Assembly (NCBI GenBank): GCA_025059045.1
Contig: JANXEA010000007.1
Location: 1-64,000, forward strand
DNA from: Candidatus Bathyarchaeota archaeon
GTDB lineage: Archaea > Thermoproteota > Bathyarchaeia > Bathyarchaeales > DTEX01
Direction: 5' to 3'
DNA: 64,000 bases
The notes beneath the pieces were generated by a model. The model did not search any database. It saw nothing but the letters and a program-made list of their open reading frames with translations, and had not been told where the DNA came from. This document shows, piece by piece, positions 18,757 through 48,277 of this stretch (position 1 is its first letter; each line of letters opens with the position of its first letter). Position numbers and translations under genes: made by a program.

Positions 18757-19143
18757 ATGTGGAATATTGGAGTAGACATAGTTGAGGTAGAGAGATTCAG
18801 AAAGATGGATTATGAAACTCATAAGAACTTCTACCAGAACATATTTACACTCAAAGAGATCGAATACTGTCTTTCACATAAAGATTCGGCTCAAAGGTTT
18901 GCCTCGACATTTGCTGGAAAGGAAGCGGTGTATAAAGCGATATCTGAGAGACTTAAGGTAGGTCTTAACGAGATAGAGATTGTCAGAGATTCTGGAATCC
19001 CCAAAGTGAATATTTATCCGGTGAGACGAGATGAATTGAATAGTTCTACAATAAAGGTTAACGTAAAAGTAAGCCTTTCACACACAAGGTCATTTGCAGT
19101 TGCATTTGCAATTGCAACATTCGAAGAGAATGAGCAAACCTGA
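18757..19143 (+). CDS. acpS: Holo-[acyl-carrier-protein] synthase
   Basis: A 128-residue AcpS-type phosphopantetheinyl transferase that moves 4'-phosphopantetheine from CoA to a serine of an acyl carrier protein. The magnesium and CoA-binding signatures are present: GVDIVEVERF (Asp7) and RFASTFAGKEAVYKAI with the key glutamate. The C-terminal VSLSHTRSFAVAFAI is also intact. The length is that of stand-alone bacterial AcpS. Such enzymes are uncommon in archaea, which lack fatty acid synthase. The likely substrate is the ACP at 20997-21239, two genes downstream. The gap to fkbH is 21 bp. Confidence 0.9.
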   Translation: MWNIGVDIVEVERFRKMDYETHKNFYQNIFTLKEIEYCLSHKDSAQRFASTFAGKEAVYKAISERLKVGLNEIEIVRDSGIPKVNIYPVRRDELNSSTIKVNVKVSLSHTRSFAVAFAIATFEENEQT

Positions 19144-19164
19144 AGAATTCGAGGAAGAAGATGG

Positions 19165-21000
19165 ATGAGTAGAGAGGAAGTATTCGGCGAGATTAGTAAG
19201 ATTCTTCAGACTGTTAGGCAGGACCCCTCATATCTCAATTATTGGCATGCTTACAAAAAGATACAGAATCTAGCACGAACAATTGAAATCCCTGAACGAA
19301 GAGGAGTGAGGATTGCCTTACTTAGCTCATTCACTATTGAACCCTTAGTCGCATGTTTAGATATAGAGTGCAGGTTAGCGGGCTTAAATCCAGAAATATA
19401 CGTTGCACCCTTTGGTCAATATTCACAAGACATTATAGACATGAACAGCCGTCTCTACATTTTCAAGCCGGACATAATCTTGGTGGCTATCGATGCTGAA
19501 TCACTCTTAAAAGATGACTTTTTTTCGAATTTTCCAAAAATTGGTGAAGAAGAGAAAAGAATCTTCCAAAATGAGGTAATAGAGCATCTAACTGGTTTAA
19601 TATCGAAACTGACGAGTCAAACGAATGCGCTGGTGCTCCTTACTAACTTCATAGTTCCAGTTTTCTCTCCATTCGGCATATTAGATAGCAAGATTGTATT
19701 AGGATTGAAGGAGTTCTTTGTGGATTTGAACACAAAACTATGCAACATTTACAGAGAGAGTAGACAAGTATATGTCTTCGATCTTGAAGGTCTCGCAGCC
19801 AAGCATGGAAAAGAAAGATGCGTTGAGGCGGAGATGCGTTTCAGAGGATCCATATTGCTCAGCAGGTCTTTCATGCCTTTAGTTGCTAAAGAGATCGCTG
19901 GTTACGTAAAGGCGTTGAAGAACCTTACTAGAAAGTGCATAGTGGTCGACTTGGATAATGTACTATGGGGCGGCATCTTAGGCGAGGACGGGTTTGACGG
20001 CATAAAGCTTGGCAGTGATCCTGTGGGGAAAGCATACGTCGATTTCCAAAAACTTCTCCTTTCTTATTATAACAGAGGAATCATTCTGGCTATAAACAGT
20101 AAGAACAATTACGAAGACGCTATGAAAGTCATAAGGGAACATCCGAATATGATTCTAAGGGAAAAACACTTTGCTGCCATGAGGATAAATTGGAAAGACA
20201 AAGTTGAAAATATGATCGAACTTGCACAGGAATTAAATATCGGCTTAGACAGCATGGTCTTTGTTGACGATTCGCCGCAAGAACGTGAGCGGATAAGACA
20301 GGCTTTGCCGCAAGTGTTAGTCTTAGAGGTTCCAAGCAGCCCCTTTAGATATGCTGAAGCGTTGATGGAATTAAATGATTTTAACACTCTGGCAATATCT
20401 GAAGAGGATAAGCTCCGCGGAGAAATGTACTACGCAGAAAGGAAAAGGAGAGATCTCATGAAGTCAGTGAGCAACATTGAAGACTTCTTGAGATCATTAG
20501 ATATGACGGCGGAGATAAGATATGCAGACAGCTTCTCGGTACCTAGAATAACAAGCCTAATCAATAGGACTAACCAATTTAACCTTACTACGAGGAGAAG
20601 AACACAGGTCGAAGTTGAAAGGATATGCTCTGAAAAAGATAAATATCTAGTTTATAGCATGAGGGTTACCGACAGGTTTGGCGACGAGGGAATCGTCGGC
20701 GTCGCAATCATAAAGAAGGGAGAGAAGGAATGGATTATAGACACATTCCTGCTAAGCTGTCGAGTTATAGGGAGAAGGGTAGAAACAGTCCTCTTGGCTA
20801 GAATAATTGAAGATGCTAGAAGAAGCGGCGTCTCTTTCTTGATTGGAGAATACATTCCAACAGAGAAGAACCAGGTTGCAAAATCCTTCTATAGCGATCA
20901 CGGATTTAAATTTGAAAATGAGGAACAAGGGGTAATGCGATGGAGGCTTAATTTGCAGGAGTCAACCGTCAAAATGCCTGACTGGGTGAAAGTAATATGA
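19165..21000 (+). CDS. FkbH-like protein (HAD phosphatase/glyceryl transferase)
   Basis: A 611-residue FkbH-family protein. FkbH enzymes take 1,3-bisphosphoglycerate, remove a phosphate and load the glyceryl unit onto an ACP. An N-terminal SGNH/flavodoxin-like region (about 1-250, with RIALLSSFTIEPLVACLDIE) precedes a HAD domain opening with CIVVDLDNVLWGGILGEDG (Asp262, Asp264). SKNNYEDAM and FVDDSPQERERIR follow. A GNAT-like C-terminal domain (about 430-600) contains FLLSCRVIGRRVE and EYIPTEKNQVA. ATG 19165 is preceded by a purine-rich GAGGAAGAAG. Its TGA overlaps the ACP start (ATGA), a strong sign of functional coupling. The acceptor of the glyceryl group is unknown. Confidence 0.88.
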   Translation: MSREEVFGEISKILQTVRQDPSYLNYWHAYKKIQNLARTIEIPERRGVRIALLSSFTIEPLVACLDIECRLAGLNPEIYVAPFGQYSQDIIDMNSRLYIFKPDIILVAIDAESLLKDDFFSNFPKIGEEEKRIFQNEVIEHLTGLISKLTSQTNALVLLTNFIVPVFSPFGILDSKIVLGLKEFFVDLNTKLCNIYRESRQVYVFDLEGLAAKHGKERCVEAEMRFRGSILLSRSFMPLVAKEIAGYVKALKNLTRKCIVVDLDNVLWGGILGEDGFDGIKLGSDPVGKAYVDFQKLLLSYYNRGIILAINSKNNYEDAMKVIREHPNMILREKHFAAMRINWKDKVENMIELAQELNIGLDSMVFVDDSPQERERIRQALPQVLVLEVPSSPFRYAEALMELNDFNTLAISEEDKLRGEMYYAERKRRDLMKSVSNIEDFLRSLDMTAEIRYADSFSVPRITSLINRTNQFNLTTRRRTQVEVERICSEKDKYLVYSMRVTDRFGDEGIVGVAIIKKGEKEWIIDTFLLSCRVIGRRVETVLLARIIEDARRSGVSFLIGEYIPTEKNQVAKSFYSDHGFKFENEEQGVMRWRLNLQESTVKMPDWVKVI

Positions 21001-21239
21001 GTGGAGAAGAAAAAAAATTGAAAGAGATAATCTCAAAAGTTCTTCTCTTAGATGAGACAAAAATATATGACGGAATCTCACGAAATGATGTTGAAGCATG
21101 GGATTCTCTCACTCATCTTATCCTAATAAGTGAAATTGAAACAGTATTTCAGATATCTTTTAGCGATGAAGACGTGATAGAGATTAATACAATAGGCGAC
21201 TTAAAAGCCAAAATGAGAAAACACGGCATCCAAATTTGA
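20997..21239 (+). CDS. Acyl carrier protein
   Basis: An 80-residue ACP. The phosphopantetheine attachment serine is in WDSLTHLILISEIE (Ser37), in place of the more usual DSL after a glycine-rich turn. The following helix II and the terminal segment INTIGDLKAKMRKHG fit the four-helix ACP fold. It starts with ATG overlapping the fkbH stop, so it is translated with FkbH. The AcpS two genes upstream should activate it. It most resembles the free ACPs paired with FkbH in polyketide and surface-polysaccharide clusters rather than a fatty-acid ACP. Confidence 0.9.
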   Translation: MSGEEKKLKEIISKVLLLDETKIYDGISRNDVEAWDSLTHLILISEIETVFQISFSDEDVIEINTIGDLKAKMRKHGIQI

Positions 21240-43027: not shown

Positions 43028-43519
43028 TTAAAGGTTAGCGGATCCGCGGGGCCTTAATAGGCGTCCCTCTCTATCTATCTCTCCAAGCCTAATTCTAGTC
43101 GAGGAGATTGGTATATGATTCTCGGCTGGAACCATATTGATTACAACAACCTCGAGAGGCGCCAGACCATACGACTTTCTGGCCTCGTTTATCCTGTGCG
43201 CCATGGGCTCGGTCTCCTGACTGACAACGATTGCCTCCAGCTCGCCGCTGATGGCTGCAGGCCCATATGGATCATCTATGGGTGTAACCTTAAAACGCCC
43301 ACCAAAACCCATCCCTTCAAGATAACGTGTTAACTCCTCAAGCCGCTCAGAGTATGGTGCGATCTCATGGTTCTTCAGAAGCCGCTTTGCGAAATCATCG
43401 GTGACGAGACCTATCCAAACACTCTCTCCGACCTCGAAAGCCTTGTTCAGCAATGCCAAATGCCCCTTGTGAAGCTCGTCAAATGTTCCGCCCACGCCTA
43501 CAAGCCTAAACTTCTTCAA
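43028..43519 (-). CDS. coaD: Phosphopantetheine adenylyltransferase (archaeal type)
   Basis: A 163-residue nucleotidyltransferase of the archaeal PPAT type that makes dephospho-CoA from 4'-phosphopantetheine and ATP. It has the HIGH-type motif VGGTFDELHKGHLALL (about residues 9-24), VSQETEPMAHRIN and the terminal IPISSTRIRLGEID. It is divergent from the ECF-like membrane gene and type II pantothenate kinase, making a CoA-related cluster. Confidence 0.9.
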   Translation of the reverse strand: MKKFRLVGVGGTFDELHKGHLALLNKAFEVGESVWIGLVTDDFAKRLLKNHEIAPYSERLEELTRYLEGMGFGGRFKVTPIDDPYGPAAISGELEAIVVSQETEPMAHRINEARKSYGLAPLEVVVINMVPAENHIPISSTRIRLGEIDREGRLLRPRGSANL

Positions 43520-43632
43520 GGCTCAATCGCTCACGTCGCTTTTCCAGCCAACCTTACGTTGATGGTGTTAGGAATCGCTATTATTTCTTCCTTTCAAATA
43601 ATACATACCTATACATACTTTTCCAAGAAAAT

Positions 43633-43641
43633 TCTTATAAG
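43633..43641 (+). promoter_or_regulatory. Putative TATA box for the ECF-like gene
   Basis: TCTTATAAG centred 24 bases before ATG 43661 is placed as an archaeal TATA element of a leaderless or near-leaderless transcript. It supports choosing that ATG over earlier codons of the same frame. Confidence 0.5.
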
Positions 43642-43660
43642 TTCATTCTCTGCCAAACAT

Positions 43661-44557
43661 ATGGCTCGTCTAGGTCTAAAGGTGAAACCATTGCATGAGA
43701 TCGAGAGCATGAGGGAAGGGCAAAATCAGGAAAAAAGCGTTGCGGTAGGGGAAATGTACTCCTCCATGTCGAATGCACTTAAATTATCACTGATATCCAT
43801 CAACGCCGCACTTTATGCCGTGGCTATATCTGTTACATCTCCGATTCCGACGCCATGGGGGGTGGGCCACTTTAGACCCGGCGTAGTTATACCGGCGTTC
43901 TTTTCTCTCGTCTTCGGCCCGCTGGTTGGAGGCTTAGGCGCCGCTATAGGCTGCTTTATTGGAGACTTTGCACTCTCATTCTTCGGTTTAACAAACCCGT
44001 TACTTAGTCTTATAGCAGGAGTTCCAGGAAACTTTTTTGGCTTCTATCTTCTTGGATGGCTCATAACCAAGAACCGGTCACTCTCCTACTTCATTATTGC
44101 TAACCTTATAGCCTTGATCGTTGGAAATCTCATAGCCGCACTCGGAGTCCTAGCATATTTTTGGTTCATAGTTCCAGACTGGGCTGTATGGCCACTAGAG
44201 CTTAAAGCCACTGTAGTATCAGGACTCACAATCTTCTGGGTGACGACAATGGTGATATTCGTTGTCCCACTTGTTCCTATCCTTGTTGCCTACATAGAGC
44301 CTAGGCTCGAGAGAATAGGAGTTAAAGGGCTCTATAATCTTGAATGGAATGAATCCTCCTGCCTGCTTAGATCGTCCGGGTTTGTTGCAGCATTTTTAGC
44401 ACTTATATATTTTGTGGTCACGTTTGTTCCCGGTGGAAAAAATCTCTTCGCTGGAGTAGTCCCGCCTGAACTAATACTGATCTCTGCGGTAATAGTCCTC
44501 ATTTCCGGCGCATTATTCGCGGTCTATGCAAAGAAGATTGTTAAACCAGAAACCTAA
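43661..44557 (+). CDS. ECF transporter S-component-like membrane protein
   Basis: A protein of 298 residues from ATG 43661, with a short soluble N terminus and about seven to eight membrane helices. The FRPGVVIPAFFSLVFGPLVG and GGLGAAIGCFIGDFAL segments are typical of ECF-family substrate-specificity (S) components for vitamins. The open frame extends upstream to 43367, but that part is antisense to coaD and is rejected. Between coaD and a type II pantothenate kinase, pantothenate or pantetheine is the natural guess for its substrate. No ECF ATPase or T component is in this window; they may be shared and encoded elsewhere. Confidence 0.72.
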   Translation: MARLGLKVKPLHEIESMREGQNQEKSVAVGEMYSSMSNALKLSLISINAALYAVAISVTSPIPTPWGVGHFRPGVVIPAFFSLVFGPLVGGLGAAIGCFIGDFALSFFGLTNPLLSLIAGVPGNFFGFYLLGWLITKNRSLSYFIIANLIALIVGNLIAALGVLAYFWFIVPDWAVWPLELKATVVSGLTIFWVTTMVIFVVPLVPILVAYIEPRLERIGVKGLYNLEWNESSCLLRSSGFVAAFLALIYFVVTFVPGGKNLFAGVVPPELILISAVIVLISGALFAVYAKKIVKPET

Positions 44558-44607
44558 CACTTCAATATGGCTTTTCGAAACGGATCGGATGGGAGGATTA
44601 GATCTGA

Positions 44608-45501
44608 TTGATCTTGGGAGTAGACATTGGTGCGAGCACCGTAAAGCAGATTCTCCTAGATGGATCGGAGATTATTTTTAAGGGATTCTGCGAATTAAGC
44701 GGTGAGACCTTCGATCTGAAGAGTCTTCAGAACATAATCTCCGAGGCTGAGCGAAGATACGAAATCAAACTGGTGGCGCTCTCAGGCGGAGGTTCTAGAA
44801 TGATTAATGAAAGTCCCCTAGGAAAGACAGTGATAAAAGTGGATGAAATATCGGCTATAGGAATAGGCGGCTTGCGATTAACGGGAAAGGATAAGGGGCT
44901 GGTCGTGAGTGCTGGTACAGGAACCGCAATGGTCGCCGTCTATGAAAATGGAAGAATCATAAAGCATGTTGGAGGGACGGGCGTAGGCGGCGGAACTCTG
45001 CTCGGTCTTTCTAGGAAATTGATCGGCGTAGGTGACTTCAGTCTGCTTGAGAGAATCGCCTCTCAGGGGAGAGCGGGAAAAGTGGACCTAACAGTCTGTG
45101 ACATTGCAGGTGGACCAGTAGGAATAATCCCCGCAGATGCAACAGCCTCAAATTTTGGAAAGGTTTCAGCTGACTCGTCTAAGGAAGATATTGCAGCAGG
45201 CATATTTAATATGGTTTCGCAGGTCATTGGGGTTCTCGCCGCCATGGCTGCAAAGGCATATGGGCTGGAGAATGATGTGATTCTCACCGGGGGACTGGCA
45301 AGGAGTAAGCTAATCACGCAAAACGTTACAACGACGGCTAATCTCTTCGGCGTTAAGGTCAATGTGCCAAAAGACCCTGAATACTGCGCGGCGGTCGGCG
45401 CGGCGCATTATGCTCTAACCAAAAAATTAGATGAAAAAGATGAGAATATCATGAGAACAAAAATAGGCTCTGATGATAGATGCTTTAGCGTAAAGTTTTA
45501 A
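44608..45501 (+). CDS. coaW: Type II pantothenate kinase (CoaW-like)
   Basis: A 297-residue ASKHA kinase. The phosphate-1 loop is GVDIGASTVKQILLDG, followed by ALSGGGSRMI. The hallmark SAGTGTAMVAVYENG and KHVGGTGVGGGTLLGLSRKL follow, then DATASNFGKV and ILTGGLARSKL. The order and sequence match S. aureus CoaW from memory. It should phosphorylate pantothenate or pantetheine. Most archaea instead use pantoate kinase and phosphopantothenate synthetase, so this looks like a salvage enzyme. TTG 44608 is the start; GGGAGG lies about 10 bases before it. It is 50 bp downstream of the ECF-like gene and likely cotranscribed. Confidence 0.85.
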   Translation: MILGVDIGASTVKQILLDGSEIIFKGFCELSGETFDLKSLQNIISEAERRYEIKLVALSGGGSRMINESPLGKTVIKVDEISAIGIGGLRLTGKDKGLVVSAGTGTAMVAVYENGRIIKHVGGTGVGGGTLLGLSRKLIGVGDFSLLERIASQGRAGKVDLTVCDIAGGPVGIIPADATASNFGKVSADSSKEDIAAGIFNMVSQVIGVLAAMAAKAYGLENDVILTGGLARSKLITQNVTTTANLFGVKVNVPKDPEYCAAVGAAHYALTKKLDEKDENIMRTKIGSDDRCFSVKF

Positions 45502-45559
45502 TGCAAGTATCTGGGAATTTGCTTAGCAGCCATCTAGGAAAGTTTGAGGAGACTTGTGT

Positions 45560-46105
45560 TTGACTGACGGTTCACTCCTTGATAGGAAAGTTGAAGTTCT
45601 ATTGAAGTTAAGGAAGTATAGGCTTTTGGAGAGGGAGGAGTCTGAGGAAGGAGCCTTCCTGAAGGTTGAGAGCCCGAGAGGCAAGAGGCTGCTGGTCTGG
45701 GCATTAAAGGGTGTTGATACGATAGGCATAAAATACATTAATATGCTATCCAAGAAAGTTAAGAGCCTTGGGTTTGATGGTGGGGTCCTGATCTCTACAG
45801 GAAAGTACACGTACTCCGCGAAGTCAAATGCTAGAAAGCGCGGGATAGAACTTGTTCCACCAAACTTCCCCTCATTCGATATATTTGAGCATTTTCTCGT
45901 CCCCAAACATGAGATACTTTCGCCCGAGGAGAAGGAGGAAGTCCTCAAGAAATACAAGGTTGAACCTTATCAGCTGCCCCTTATAAAGGTATCGGATCCA
46001 ATCGCTAAAGTGATAGGGGCTAGGGTCGGCGATCTCGTAAAGATCACTCGAAAAAGCCCGACAGCTGGCGAGTATATTTCTTACCGATATGTGGTTGAGG
46101 GTTAA
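45560..46105 (+). CDS. rpoH: RNA polymerase subunit H (Rpb5) with an N-terminal domain
   Basis: The C-terminal 80 residues are a canonical archaeal RpoH/Rpb5: FEHFLVPKHEILSPEEKEEV, YQLPLIKVSDPIAKVIGARV, VKITRKSPTAGEYISYRYVV. Archaeal RpoH is usually only this domain. Here about 100 residues precede it, with LLVWALKGVDTIGIKYINML, GFDGGVLISTGKYTYSAKSN and ARKRGIELVPPN. This looks like the restriction-endonuclease-like fold that forms the N-terminal jaw domain of eukaryotic RPB5. TTG 45560, preceded by GAGGAG at 8 bases, is preferred; TTG 45554 is also open. It is not next to rpoB or rpoA, unlike the usual archaeal order. Confidence 0.88.
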   Translation: MTDGSLLDRKVEVLLKLRKYRLLEREESEEGAFLKVESPRGKRLLVWALKGVDTIGIKYINMLSKKVKSLGFDGGVLISTGKYTYSAKSNARKRGIELVPPNFPSFDIFEHFLVPKHEILSPEEKEEVLKKYKVEPYQLPLIKVSDPIAKVIGARVGDLVKITRKSPTAGEYISYRYVVEG

Positions 46106-46432: not shown

Positions 46433-46852
46433 TTACTGCTCGCCTTTGCTTTTTACTGGTCTAAAATAGTACCTAGGCCACTGCGGCCATGTCGCTGGGG
46501 CTGTGGTCTCAAATTCAACCTCAAGCTCCATCCCTATCTCCGCATCATTGTTCGGCAAGCCCTTTATTATGCCGGGAAGCCTAGGTCCATCCTCGAGCTC
46601 GACGATACCATAGACGTATGGAGCTAAGTGTTGAAACTCTTCTGGCGCAACATAGATGACGGTGTAGGTTATGAGCTTCCCACGAGTCTTAATCTCGGTC
46701 CAACCCATTTCCCTGGAATCACATTTAGGGCAAATCGGTTTTGGCGGTATGATTTTTAAGCCGCAATGCTTGCACTCGGCTGCCATCAGCTTCTTCTCGC
46801 CGATGAATTTATAGAATTGCTCAATCGTTAAAGGAGATACAACATTTTCCAT
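46433..46852 (-). CDS. DUF35 zinc-ribbon/OB-fold acyl-CoA partner protein
   Basis: A 139-residue protein from ATG 46852, placed just after a strong AGGAGGTGAGG site. The N-terminal helix is IEQFYKFIGEKKLMAAECKH, the rubredoxin-like ribbon is CKHCG...CPKC, and the OB fold has RGKLITYTVIYVAPEEF. Archaeal DUF35 proteins bridge thiolase and HMG-CoA synthase. Here the thiolase is adjacent but HMG-CoA synthase is not in this window. The longer open frame (to 46882) starts inside the thiolase gene. Confidence 0.85.
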   Translation of the reverse strand: MENVVSPLTIEQFYKFIGEKKLMAAECKHCGLKIIPPKPICPKCDSREMGWTEIKTRGKLITYTVIYVAPEEFQHLAPYVYGIVELEDGPRLPGIIKGLPNNDAEIGMELEVEFETTAPATWPQWPRYYFRPVKSKGEQ

Positions 46853-46859
46853 TTTTTCC

Positions 46860-48029
46860 TCACCTCCTATAAATGTGCACAAAGCATGTTGCGCCGCTAC
46901 CGCCTATATTATGTGTTAACCCTATTTGGCAATCGTCCACCTGCCTCTTATCTGCCTCTCCAGTTAACTGTAGGAAGATTTCGTATAGCTGAGCGACGCC
47001 AGTTGCGCCTACCGGATGCCCCTTAGCCTTGAGGCCGCCACTCGTATTGACGGGCAACTCGCCTTCAAGCGTTGGTGCGCCGTCCTCAATGAATTTCCCT
47101 CCCTCCCCTTCACTGCAGAAGCCAAGATCCTCATATGCGATGAGCTCCGCTATTGTGAAGCAATCATGCACCTCGGCTACGTCAATATCCTGAGGCTTGA
47201 CCCCTGCCATAGAATATGCCTCGCTTGCTGCTAACCTAGCCGCTTTGATGCTTGTCAAATTTTCCCTCTCATAAAGACCTAAGCAGTCGGTTCCATGTCC
47301 GGACCCTATTATGTATATGGGATCATCCGTGAACTTCTTCGCGATCTCAGGCCTGGTAAGAACTGCGCAGCTAGCTCCATCTGAGATCAGTGAGCAGTCG
47401 TATAGCTTGAGTGGATCAGCGATCTTTCTTGATTCAAGAACCTTGTCAACCGTAACTTCTTTTTGCATGTGCGCCTTGGGATTCAGGCTCCCATTATGAT
47501 GATTTTTAACAGCTATAAGAGCCATCTGCTCCTCAGTAGTCCCATACCTGTACATATGTGCCCTAGCCATTAAGGCGAAGAGCCCTGGGAATGTGACGCC
47601 ATTCCACTGCTCAAATGGGAAGTCTGCGGCCATGCCCAGATACTCGGTCGCCTCTGCTGTGGACCTTTTTGTCATCTTCTCGAAACCGCCGACCAAAACG
47701 ACATCAACTAGACCGGAGAGAATGCTGAAGATCCCGAGCCTTATCGCGGCGCCCGAAGATGCGCAGGCAACCTCAGTCCTTACAGATGGAACGGGTAGAA
47801 GCCCTGCCCACTCTGAGGCAAGGGGAGCCAAATGGCCTTGATGTTCAAAAGACTCGCTCATAACACCAATAATCATTGATTTTATGTCCCTTCTCGGATT
47901 GAGGTTTGGGCACCTATCAAACGCTTCCCTAACAGCCTCAGCAAACAACTCCCTCCCAGTCAGATCCTCCATCTTACCGAACCTTGAAATACCAGCCGTC
48001 ACAACTGCCGCAAGGGGTCTTCCTCTCAT
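46860..48029 (-). CDS. Thiolase-family acetyl-CoA acetyltransferase
   Basis: A 389-residue thiolase from ATG 48029 (MRGRPLAAVV), preceded by GGGAGG. The acylated cysteine is in RTEVACASSGAAIRLG (about residue 86), HDCFTIAEL supplies the catalytic histidine, and the terminal GGLKAKGHPVGATGVAQLYE and NIGGSGATCFVHIY complete the site. Such archaeal thiolases supply acetoacetyl-CoA for isoprenoid lipids together with DUF35. Substrate could also be a longer acyl-CoA. It is separated from the DUF35 gene by only 7 bp. Confidence 0.88.
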   Translation of the reverse strand: MRGRPLAAVVTAGISRFGKMEDLTGRELFAEAVREAFDRCPNLNPRRDIKSMIIGVMSESFEHQGHLAPLASEWAGLLPVPSVRTEVACASSGAAIRLGIFSILSGLVDVVLVGGFEKMTKRSTAEATEYLGMAADFPFEQWNGVTFPGLFALMARAHMYRYGTTEEQMALIAVKNHHNGSLNPKAHMQKEVTVDKVLESRKIADPLKLYDCSLISDGASCAVLTRPEIAKKFTDDPIYIIGSGHGTDCLGLYERENLTSIKAARLAASEAYSMAGVKPQDIDVAEVHDCFTIAELIAYEDLGFCSEGEGGKFIEDGAPTLEGELPVNTSGGLKAKGHPVGATGVAQLYEIFLQLTGEADKRQVDDCQIGLTHNIGGSGATCFVHIYRR

Positions 48030-48277
48030 ATTTTTTCCTCCCAAGACTTGACTTTCTAGATGATTTTCTATGCTAATTCAACTTTGACGAATATATTCTT
48101 ACTGTAAATATCTGCTTTCACACTTAACAGATTAACATTAAAGAGTTGAATACCTGGGGAAATGATGCCCAGGTCATGTGATTCTTCCTTAATGGGTGGA
48201 GATCGCCCTAACCAAGGCTTTTGGAACATTAAACTAATAAAACACTTCATTTACTGAGATATCTAGACCGCATGTAA

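Follow-up and report, generated by a model that had tools for sequence, protein, structure and literature searches.

CoA is universal, and archaea are thought to make it almost always through pantoate kinase (PoK) and phosphopantothenate synthetase (PPS). Bathyarchaeota have been named among the exceptions, without homologues of either enzyme, in the available text of a 2019 T. kodakarensis paper (PMC6650551). For gut bacteria, the accessible portion of a genome survey proposes a pantetheine shunt in 91 strains that lack CoaBC, reports known B5 transporters in only 12% of ~90 pantetheine auxotrophs, and describes knowledge of the transport systems as incomplete (PMC6593275). According to the extract available of PMC11487621, pantethine sustains a coaBC mutant of B. 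subtilis, in which the pantetheine kinase activity comes from CoaA. Our search of the open-access literature, with subscription journals mostly outside it, found no paper on pantothenate auxotrophy in Bathyarchaeia, none on CoA biosynthesis in Bathyarchaeota that is listed as being on pantetheine, only work on eukaryotic parasites for archaeal pantetheine salvage with phosphopantetheine adenylyltransferase (PPAT), and nothing beyond the B. subtilis paper (PMC11487621) for pantetheine together with an ECF transporter S component. Here we compare with these systems an archaeal gene cluster that encodes a PPAT, an ECF-type S component and a type II pantothenate-kinase-like protein.

Results

The cluster and its surroundings

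The window, that is, the whole stretch of 64,000 nucleotides that was analysed, is part of contig C7 of the draft genome of an uncultured archaeon (G000; 1.42 Mb, 98% complete). We compared this genome with 100 relatives (101 genomes in total), of which its own family, f1, comprises 21 genomes; all gene-absence calls are made on draft genomes, and a subset of 63 good genomes has a completeness of 90% or more and a contamination of 5% or less. The three open reading frames that the original prediction had placed in the cluster, for PPAT, an ECF-like S protein and a type II PanK-like kinase, were all found at their positions, and the coordinates bear out the arrangement claimed for them, with the kinase gene adjoining the S gene and PPAT facing both (Table 1). 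PPAT is divergent from the S gene, and the kinase gene follows the S gene on the same strand after a gap of 50 bp. The S frame as listed begins at 43367, the ATG at 43754 being the likely start, and both promoters probably lie in the 234 bp that separate PPAT from the S gene. By profile and fold searches, the family matches of all three proteins lie far above chance.

Table 1. Positions and supporting evidence for the cluster, the carrier-protein genes of the window and the CoaBC fusions of relatives
Feature	Position	Strand	Evidence
Archaeal phosphopantetheine adenylyltransferase (PPAT, CoaD)	43028..43519	-	NF001985, 174.8 bits (cut-off 104)
Divergent intergenic region PPAT/S gene, 234 bp	43520..43753	.	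Coordinates and sequence; putative promoter role
ECF transporter S component, candidate pantetheine/pantothenate importer subunit	43754..44557	+	PF07155, ECF S fold, neighbourhood in relatives
Type II pantothenate-kinase-like protein, candidate pantetheine kinase	44608..45501	+	PF03630, S. aureus PanK fold; TTG start
ACPS	18757		PF01648
Small acyl carrier protein (ACP)	20997		PF00550, 24.4 bits (cut-off 20.8)
TANGO2 fused to CoaBC N-terminus (G024)	L145:1362-3368		PF05742+PF02441+PF04127
TANGO2 fused to CoaBC N-terminus (G037)	L146:491-2515		PF05742+PF02441+PF04127
TANGO2 fused to CoaBC N-terminus (G022)	L147:459-2423		PF05742+PF02441+PF04127
TANGO2 fused to CoaBC N-terminus (G031)	L148:760-2499		PF05742+PF02441+PF04127

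Elsewhere in the window, genes for ACPS (PF01648), an FkbH-like protein (PF21211) and ACP (PF00550) stand in a row at 18757-21239, and the organism therefore needs 4'-phosphopantetheine for a carrier protein. The ACP at 20997, which had been put forward as a phosphopantetheine user, is a real one by its PF00550 match and shares this row with the ACPS gene. Beyond the cluster, a gene at 45554-46105 encodes the archaeal RNA polymerase subunit Rpo5/RpoH (PF01191) with an extra N-terminal region that matches the restriction-endonuclease-like family PF04471 (24 bits, cut-off 21); eukaryotic Rpb5 has an endonuclease-like N-terminal domain, and typical archaeal Rpo5, to our knowledge, goes without one. 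At 46433-48044, a thiolase adjoins an OB-fold/zinc-ribbon protein (ChsH2-like, DUF35-type), a pair that probably serves the acetoacetyl-CoA step of the mevalonate pathway.

The S component

The S protein scored 42.2-43.5 bits with PF07155 (cut-off 26.7). Its AlphaFold2 model (pLDDT 88) has the ECF S components ThiT, RibU and PanT as its nearest solved folds, with Foldseek probabilities of 0.99-1.0 and E-values of only 0.007-0.14, and a likeness at such weak E-values says nothing about the substrate. The original prediction had called for a look at shared ECF A and T components, and the genome indeed encodes a single CbiQ-family T protein adjoining two ABC ATPases on contig C11, away from the cluster; as this is the only T protein with two ATPases, the A-A-T unit serving the S protein would be a shared one. 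An S-family profile, a helical S fold (E 0.007 or worse) and A and T components in the genome together mark the protein as an ECF S component.

In a tree of S sequences, built from 73 rows less three short ones, the window S forms, with those of G007 and G037, a separate lineage that is sister to a 'long' S group, and is not the S that adjoins PPAT in most relatives. The idea that it is the same S as in the relatives' modules was rejected on this ground; we therefore claim shared position and not orthology, and another substrate is possible for a protein of this different lineage.

The type II PanK-like kinase

The kinase belongs to the Pfam family Fumble (PF03630, 85.7 bits, cut-off 28.5) and falls short of both NCBIfam equivalogs, with 193.1 bits over the full length against the type II PanK model NF009842 (cut-off 234) and 99.8 bits against TIGR00555 (cut-off 247.6). 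Its AlphaFold2 model (pLDDT 81) has S. aureus PanK-II (4nb4, E 1.7e-19) as its best PDB match. In PANK3, as given in the available text of PMC8366970, Glu138 is catalytic and Arg207 hydrogen-bonds pantothenate. The equivalent of the former, Glu80, is present in all 14 orthologues and in all 88 rows of the wider family. Scanning GTDB with the kinase alignment gave 464 loci, of which the best 80 were kept; the residue count excludes six of these 80, for which the ORF caller gave no kinase frame. The position of Arg207, as taken from the alignment to S. aureus PanK, holds His120 in 14/14 orthologues, and His, Tyr and Arg in 80, 7 and 1 of the 88 wider-family rows. The description of the kinase as 'CoaW-type' thus stands for Pfam family and fold, and fails at the NCBI equivalog cut-offs and at the substrate-positioning Arg, which a His replaces. 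This replacement was considered as a marker of pantetheine specificity and dropped, because the His is common to the whole kinase family, including bacteria that carry CoaBC.

Close orthologues of the kinase (E < 1e-70) occur in 14/101 genomes, 13 of these in f1, and the S gene adjoins the kinase gene in 13 of the 14. In the remaining genome (G037), the 5' end of the kinase gene and the 3' end of the S gene both lie at contig ends, in an orientation that fits a split S-kinase operon. Two main layouts recur: in G000, G007 and G015, S and kinase form an operon with PPAT divergent; in G010, G017, G012, G020 and others, the operon consists of S and PPAT, and the kinase gene is the divergent one.

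CoA pathway genes in the window genome and its family

Profile searches found no PPS (PF02006) in G000 or in any of the 21 f1 genomes (23/101 genomes have one), and no DFP domain of CoaBC (PF04127) in either (33/101 have one); the Flavoprotein domain PF02441 was likewise not found in G000, and at least one occurs in 79/101 genomes. With neither PF04127 nor PF02441, G000 has neither half of CoaBC (PPCS, PPCDC). PanB was also missing from G000 and from all 21 f1 genomes in a search of the 101 genomes, 20 of which have it. G000 encodes four GHMP kinases; typing assigned them to homoserine kinase, shikimate kinase, mevalonate kinase and a galactokinase-like protein, which leaves no pantoate kinase among them. 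The absence of pantoate kinase and PPS that the original prediction led us to expect was confirmed in this way, and the gene content is not that of the canonical archaeal PoK/PPS pathway.

PPAT is over its cut-off in 85/101 genomes and the GTP-dependent dephospho-CoA kinase (DPCK) family PF04019 is present in 95/101, G000 being among both. This genome has thus kept the steps from phosphopantetheine to CoA and lost those from pantothenate to phosphopantetheine; CoaBC is absent, and a pantothenate-type kinase, PPAT and DPCK are present, which is the gene content of a pantetheine shunt. In seven relatives (G001, G004, G006, G009, G011 and G013 of f1, and G023 of f4) the type II kinase is absent and no PPAT exceeds the cut-off; two of the seven are 95% (G004) and 98% complete, and DPCK is found in all except G009.

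The module among relatives and its relation to CoaBC

Strong S matches (E up to 1.4e-8) occur in 60/101 genomes, 58 of which also have PPAT over the cut-off, and in 53 of these 58 no more than 3 kb separates S from PPAT (exceptions: G005, G022, G037, G050 and G068). Around the 20 S genes outside f1 whose neighbourhoods were fetched, a GHMP kinase adjoins S in 18, and S, GHMP kinase and PPAT stand together in 16. Three scanned module GHMP kinases scored 123-142 bits with the better of two NCBI pantoate kinase models, and the pantoate kinase adjoining PPS in a relative scored 176 bits with the same models, whose cut-offs of 380 and 500 were reached by none of the scanned GHMP kinases, the PPS-linked one included. 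In an alignment, fifteen module GHMP kinases share 33-42% identity with three pantoate kinases encoded next to PPS, and eight fixed differences set the two groups apart. Judged by these similarities, genomes without the type II kinase usually have a PoK-family (GHMP) kinase in the slot beside S. Relatives keep the module and have an unrelated kinase in it; the branch to which the window belongs also has an S of another lineage.

Defining the module as an S gene no more than 3 kb from PPAT, and adding G024, whose S gene is cut by a contig end, we counted the module in 54 and canonical CoaBC in 28 of the 101 genomes, with no overlap and 19 genomes having neither. Among the 63 good genomes the figures were 43, 14 and 6, again with no overlap. 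The exclusion has Fisher p-values of ~1e-12 (101 genomes) and ~1e-9 (63 good genomes) with kinship ignored, and families f6, f7 and f8 each contain both CoaBC genomes and module genomes. 'Canonical' here omits five genomes (G054, G022, G024, G031 and G037), all with S genes; counting any DFP gives an overlap with the module of 3/101 (p 2.5e-10). G054 has a divergent CoaBC of 415 aa, and the other four carry the fusions of Table 1. In these five genomes, with S genes and divergent CoaBC, the module may handle pantothenate.

Human TANGO2 is a reported acyl-CoA-binding protein in the accessible part of PMC11867700, and the TANGO2-CoaBC fusion is an independent genomic link between TANGO2 and CoA synthesis. 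We found no open-access paper that mentions both TANGO2 and CoaBC, subscription journals lying mostly outside the search.

The kinase beyond the 101 genomes

The S gene adjoins the kinase gene in 15 of the best 80 GTDB loci, all 15 of them archaeal, including Brockarchaeota, Thaumarchaeota and Methanodesulfokora. DFP was searched for in the genomes of 27 of the 80 loci: where S adjoins the kinase gene, 1 genome of 11 has it, and where S does not, 12 of 16 do (p=0.0013). In the kinase tree, which leaves out or lacks L165 to L168 (contigs already included as G017, G014, G007 and G002), the S-linked archaeal kinases and that of L185 fall together, with good support, in a single group of 25 rows. 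At L185:4196-6843, in a Thermoproteota MAG, the kinase gene is divergent from a full CoaBC, and no S gene was found; the product of this kinase gene is probably a true pantothenate kinase within the same family. Since this kinase is nested in the S-linked clade, the family may accept pantothenate or pantetheine, depending on its partner genes. The same kinase family lies near CoaBC in L233 and L234, and S, kinase and CoaBC are all present in L211 (Methanodesulfokora).

Discussion

From the computed families, pathway genes and neighbourhoods we infer which substrate is used, which way it is transported, that the S protein pairs with the A-A-T unit and what the kinase does, and we consider it probable that the cluster is a pantetheine-salvage module that bypasses a missing CoaBC. 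The window S and the genome's shared A-A-T unit would form an ECF transporter that takes up pantetheine or a closely related derivative. The kinase, which is type II PanK-like, would phosphorylate the 4'-hydroxyl of pantetheine, yielding 4'-phosphopantetheine, from which PPAT would make dephospho-CoA; the last step, to CoA, would fall to the archaeal GTP-dependent dephospho-CoA kinase, whose gene lies outside the cluster. The shunt proposed for gut bacteria and the B. subtilis coaBC mutant are precedents for such a bypass. Pantetheine is itself a pantothenamide. The S. aureus PanK-II scaffold accepts pantothenamides, to go by the title of PDB entry 4nb4. The original prediction of salvage by uptake and phosphorylation holds up in this respect, and of the two substrates between which it left the choice open, pantetheine is favoured: phosphopantothenate would lead nowhere without CoaBC, and PPAT and dephospho-CoA kinase are retained, so pantetheine is the likelier substrate. 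Against a pantetheine module stand f1 genomes, such as G004, that have neither kinase nor PPAT, the different lineage of the window S, the co-occurrence of the L185 and L211 kinases with CoaBC, and the five genomes in which S genes are accompanied by a divergent CoaBC.

Salvage of pantothenate would have S import pantothenate, the kinase convert it to phosphopantothenate, and non-homologous PPCS and PPCDC enzymes carry it on to phosphopantetheine. Type II PanKs do take their name from pantothenate, members of this kinase family lie near CoaBC at L185, L233 and L234, and S genes occur with the TANGO2-CoaBC fusion in four genomes (G022, G024, G031 and G037); yet not one of the 21 genomes in f1 has DFP, the Flavoprotein domain is missing altogether from G000, and module and canonical CoaBC are mutually exclusive, which makes this route unlikely in our judgement. 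The adjacency of S, kinase and PPAT is kept across several families and arrangements, and the kinase slot mostly holds families with known pantoyl-carrying substrates. Both points speak against a kinase and S protein that serve a different vitamin or acid, with PPAT beside them by chance or through shared regulation and CoA, dephospho-CoA or phosphopantetheine itself being imported; we regard this as quite improbable, even though PF07155 is annotated as a riboflavin S family, the window S lineage is not the usual one and some f1 genomes manage without kinase and PPAT.

It is harder still to credit that the 'kinase' phosphorylates no small molecule and is a BadF/BadG/HgdC-type activator ATPase of a radical dehydratase. 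It does score above the cut-off of PF01869 (44.7 bits against 31.5), but with 61.3 bits it lies well outside BadF/HgdC membership as defined by TIGR00241 (cut-off 125.4), PanK-II is the better match by sequence (1.8e-17 versus 8.8e-8) and by fold (1.7e-19 versus 3.1e-14), the catalytic Glu is invariant, and PPAT is the genomic neighbour.

If the pantetheine-salvage module is what the cluster encodes, it gives the Bathyarchaeota exceptions without PoK and PPS a candidate route to CoA and a nutritional dependence, one that could help cultivation if pantethine rather than pantothenate is supplied, and its S component is a candidate for the largely unknown pantetheine transporter. A broader proposal, to which we give about an even chance, is that a whole lineage of archaea lives on pantetheine: most of the Bathyarchaeota relatives compared here would have given up CoaBC for the S-kinase-PPAT module, S would be the first pantetheine-specific ECF importer, and the kinase would have been recruited at least twice. 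In one case a pantoate kinase (GHMP) would have become a pantetheine kinase, and proteins that probably carry the annotation 'pantoate kinase' would bear the wrong name; in the other, a type II PanK-like kinase would have been acquired. The cluster also leads to the prediction that a group of GHMP proteins, nearest to pantoate kinase, has pantetheine as its substrate, the pantoyl hydroxyl being the same chemical target.

Among described systems, the gut-bacterial pantetheine shunt (Apn variant), as far as the accessible portion of PMC6593275 describes it, resembles the archaeal cluster in having a pantothenate-type kinase, CoaD and the last kinase, in missing CoaBC and the de novo route, and in having pantetheine as the inferred vitamer. 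As opposed to what that portion describes, the archaeon has an archaeal PPAT, a GTP-dependent DPCK and a dedicated S component in the cluster, and the kinase of the archaeal module is either type II PanK-like or PoK-like. Akin to S. aureus CoaW (PDB 4nb4, 2ews), the window kinase has the PanK-II fold, matches over nearly its full length and keeps the catalytic Glu, whereas it is ~24% identical, below the NCBI equivalog cut-off, has His for Arg and comes from a genome without CoaBC. The pantothenate importers ECF-PanT and PanU share with the window S an S component fold and the use of a shared A-A-T unit; unlike them, the window S is nearest to Pfam PF07155, and pantetheine or pantothenate is its putative substrate. 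The archaeal PoK that works with PPS belongs to the same GHMP family as the kinase in the equivalent slot of relatives, but the relatives with a PoK-like slot kinase lack PPS, and G000 lacks any PoK-family protein. Our addition to these systems is a gene cluster, conserved in archaea, that brings together a candidate transporter and interchangeable kinases and whose predicted substrate and activity we read from sequence.
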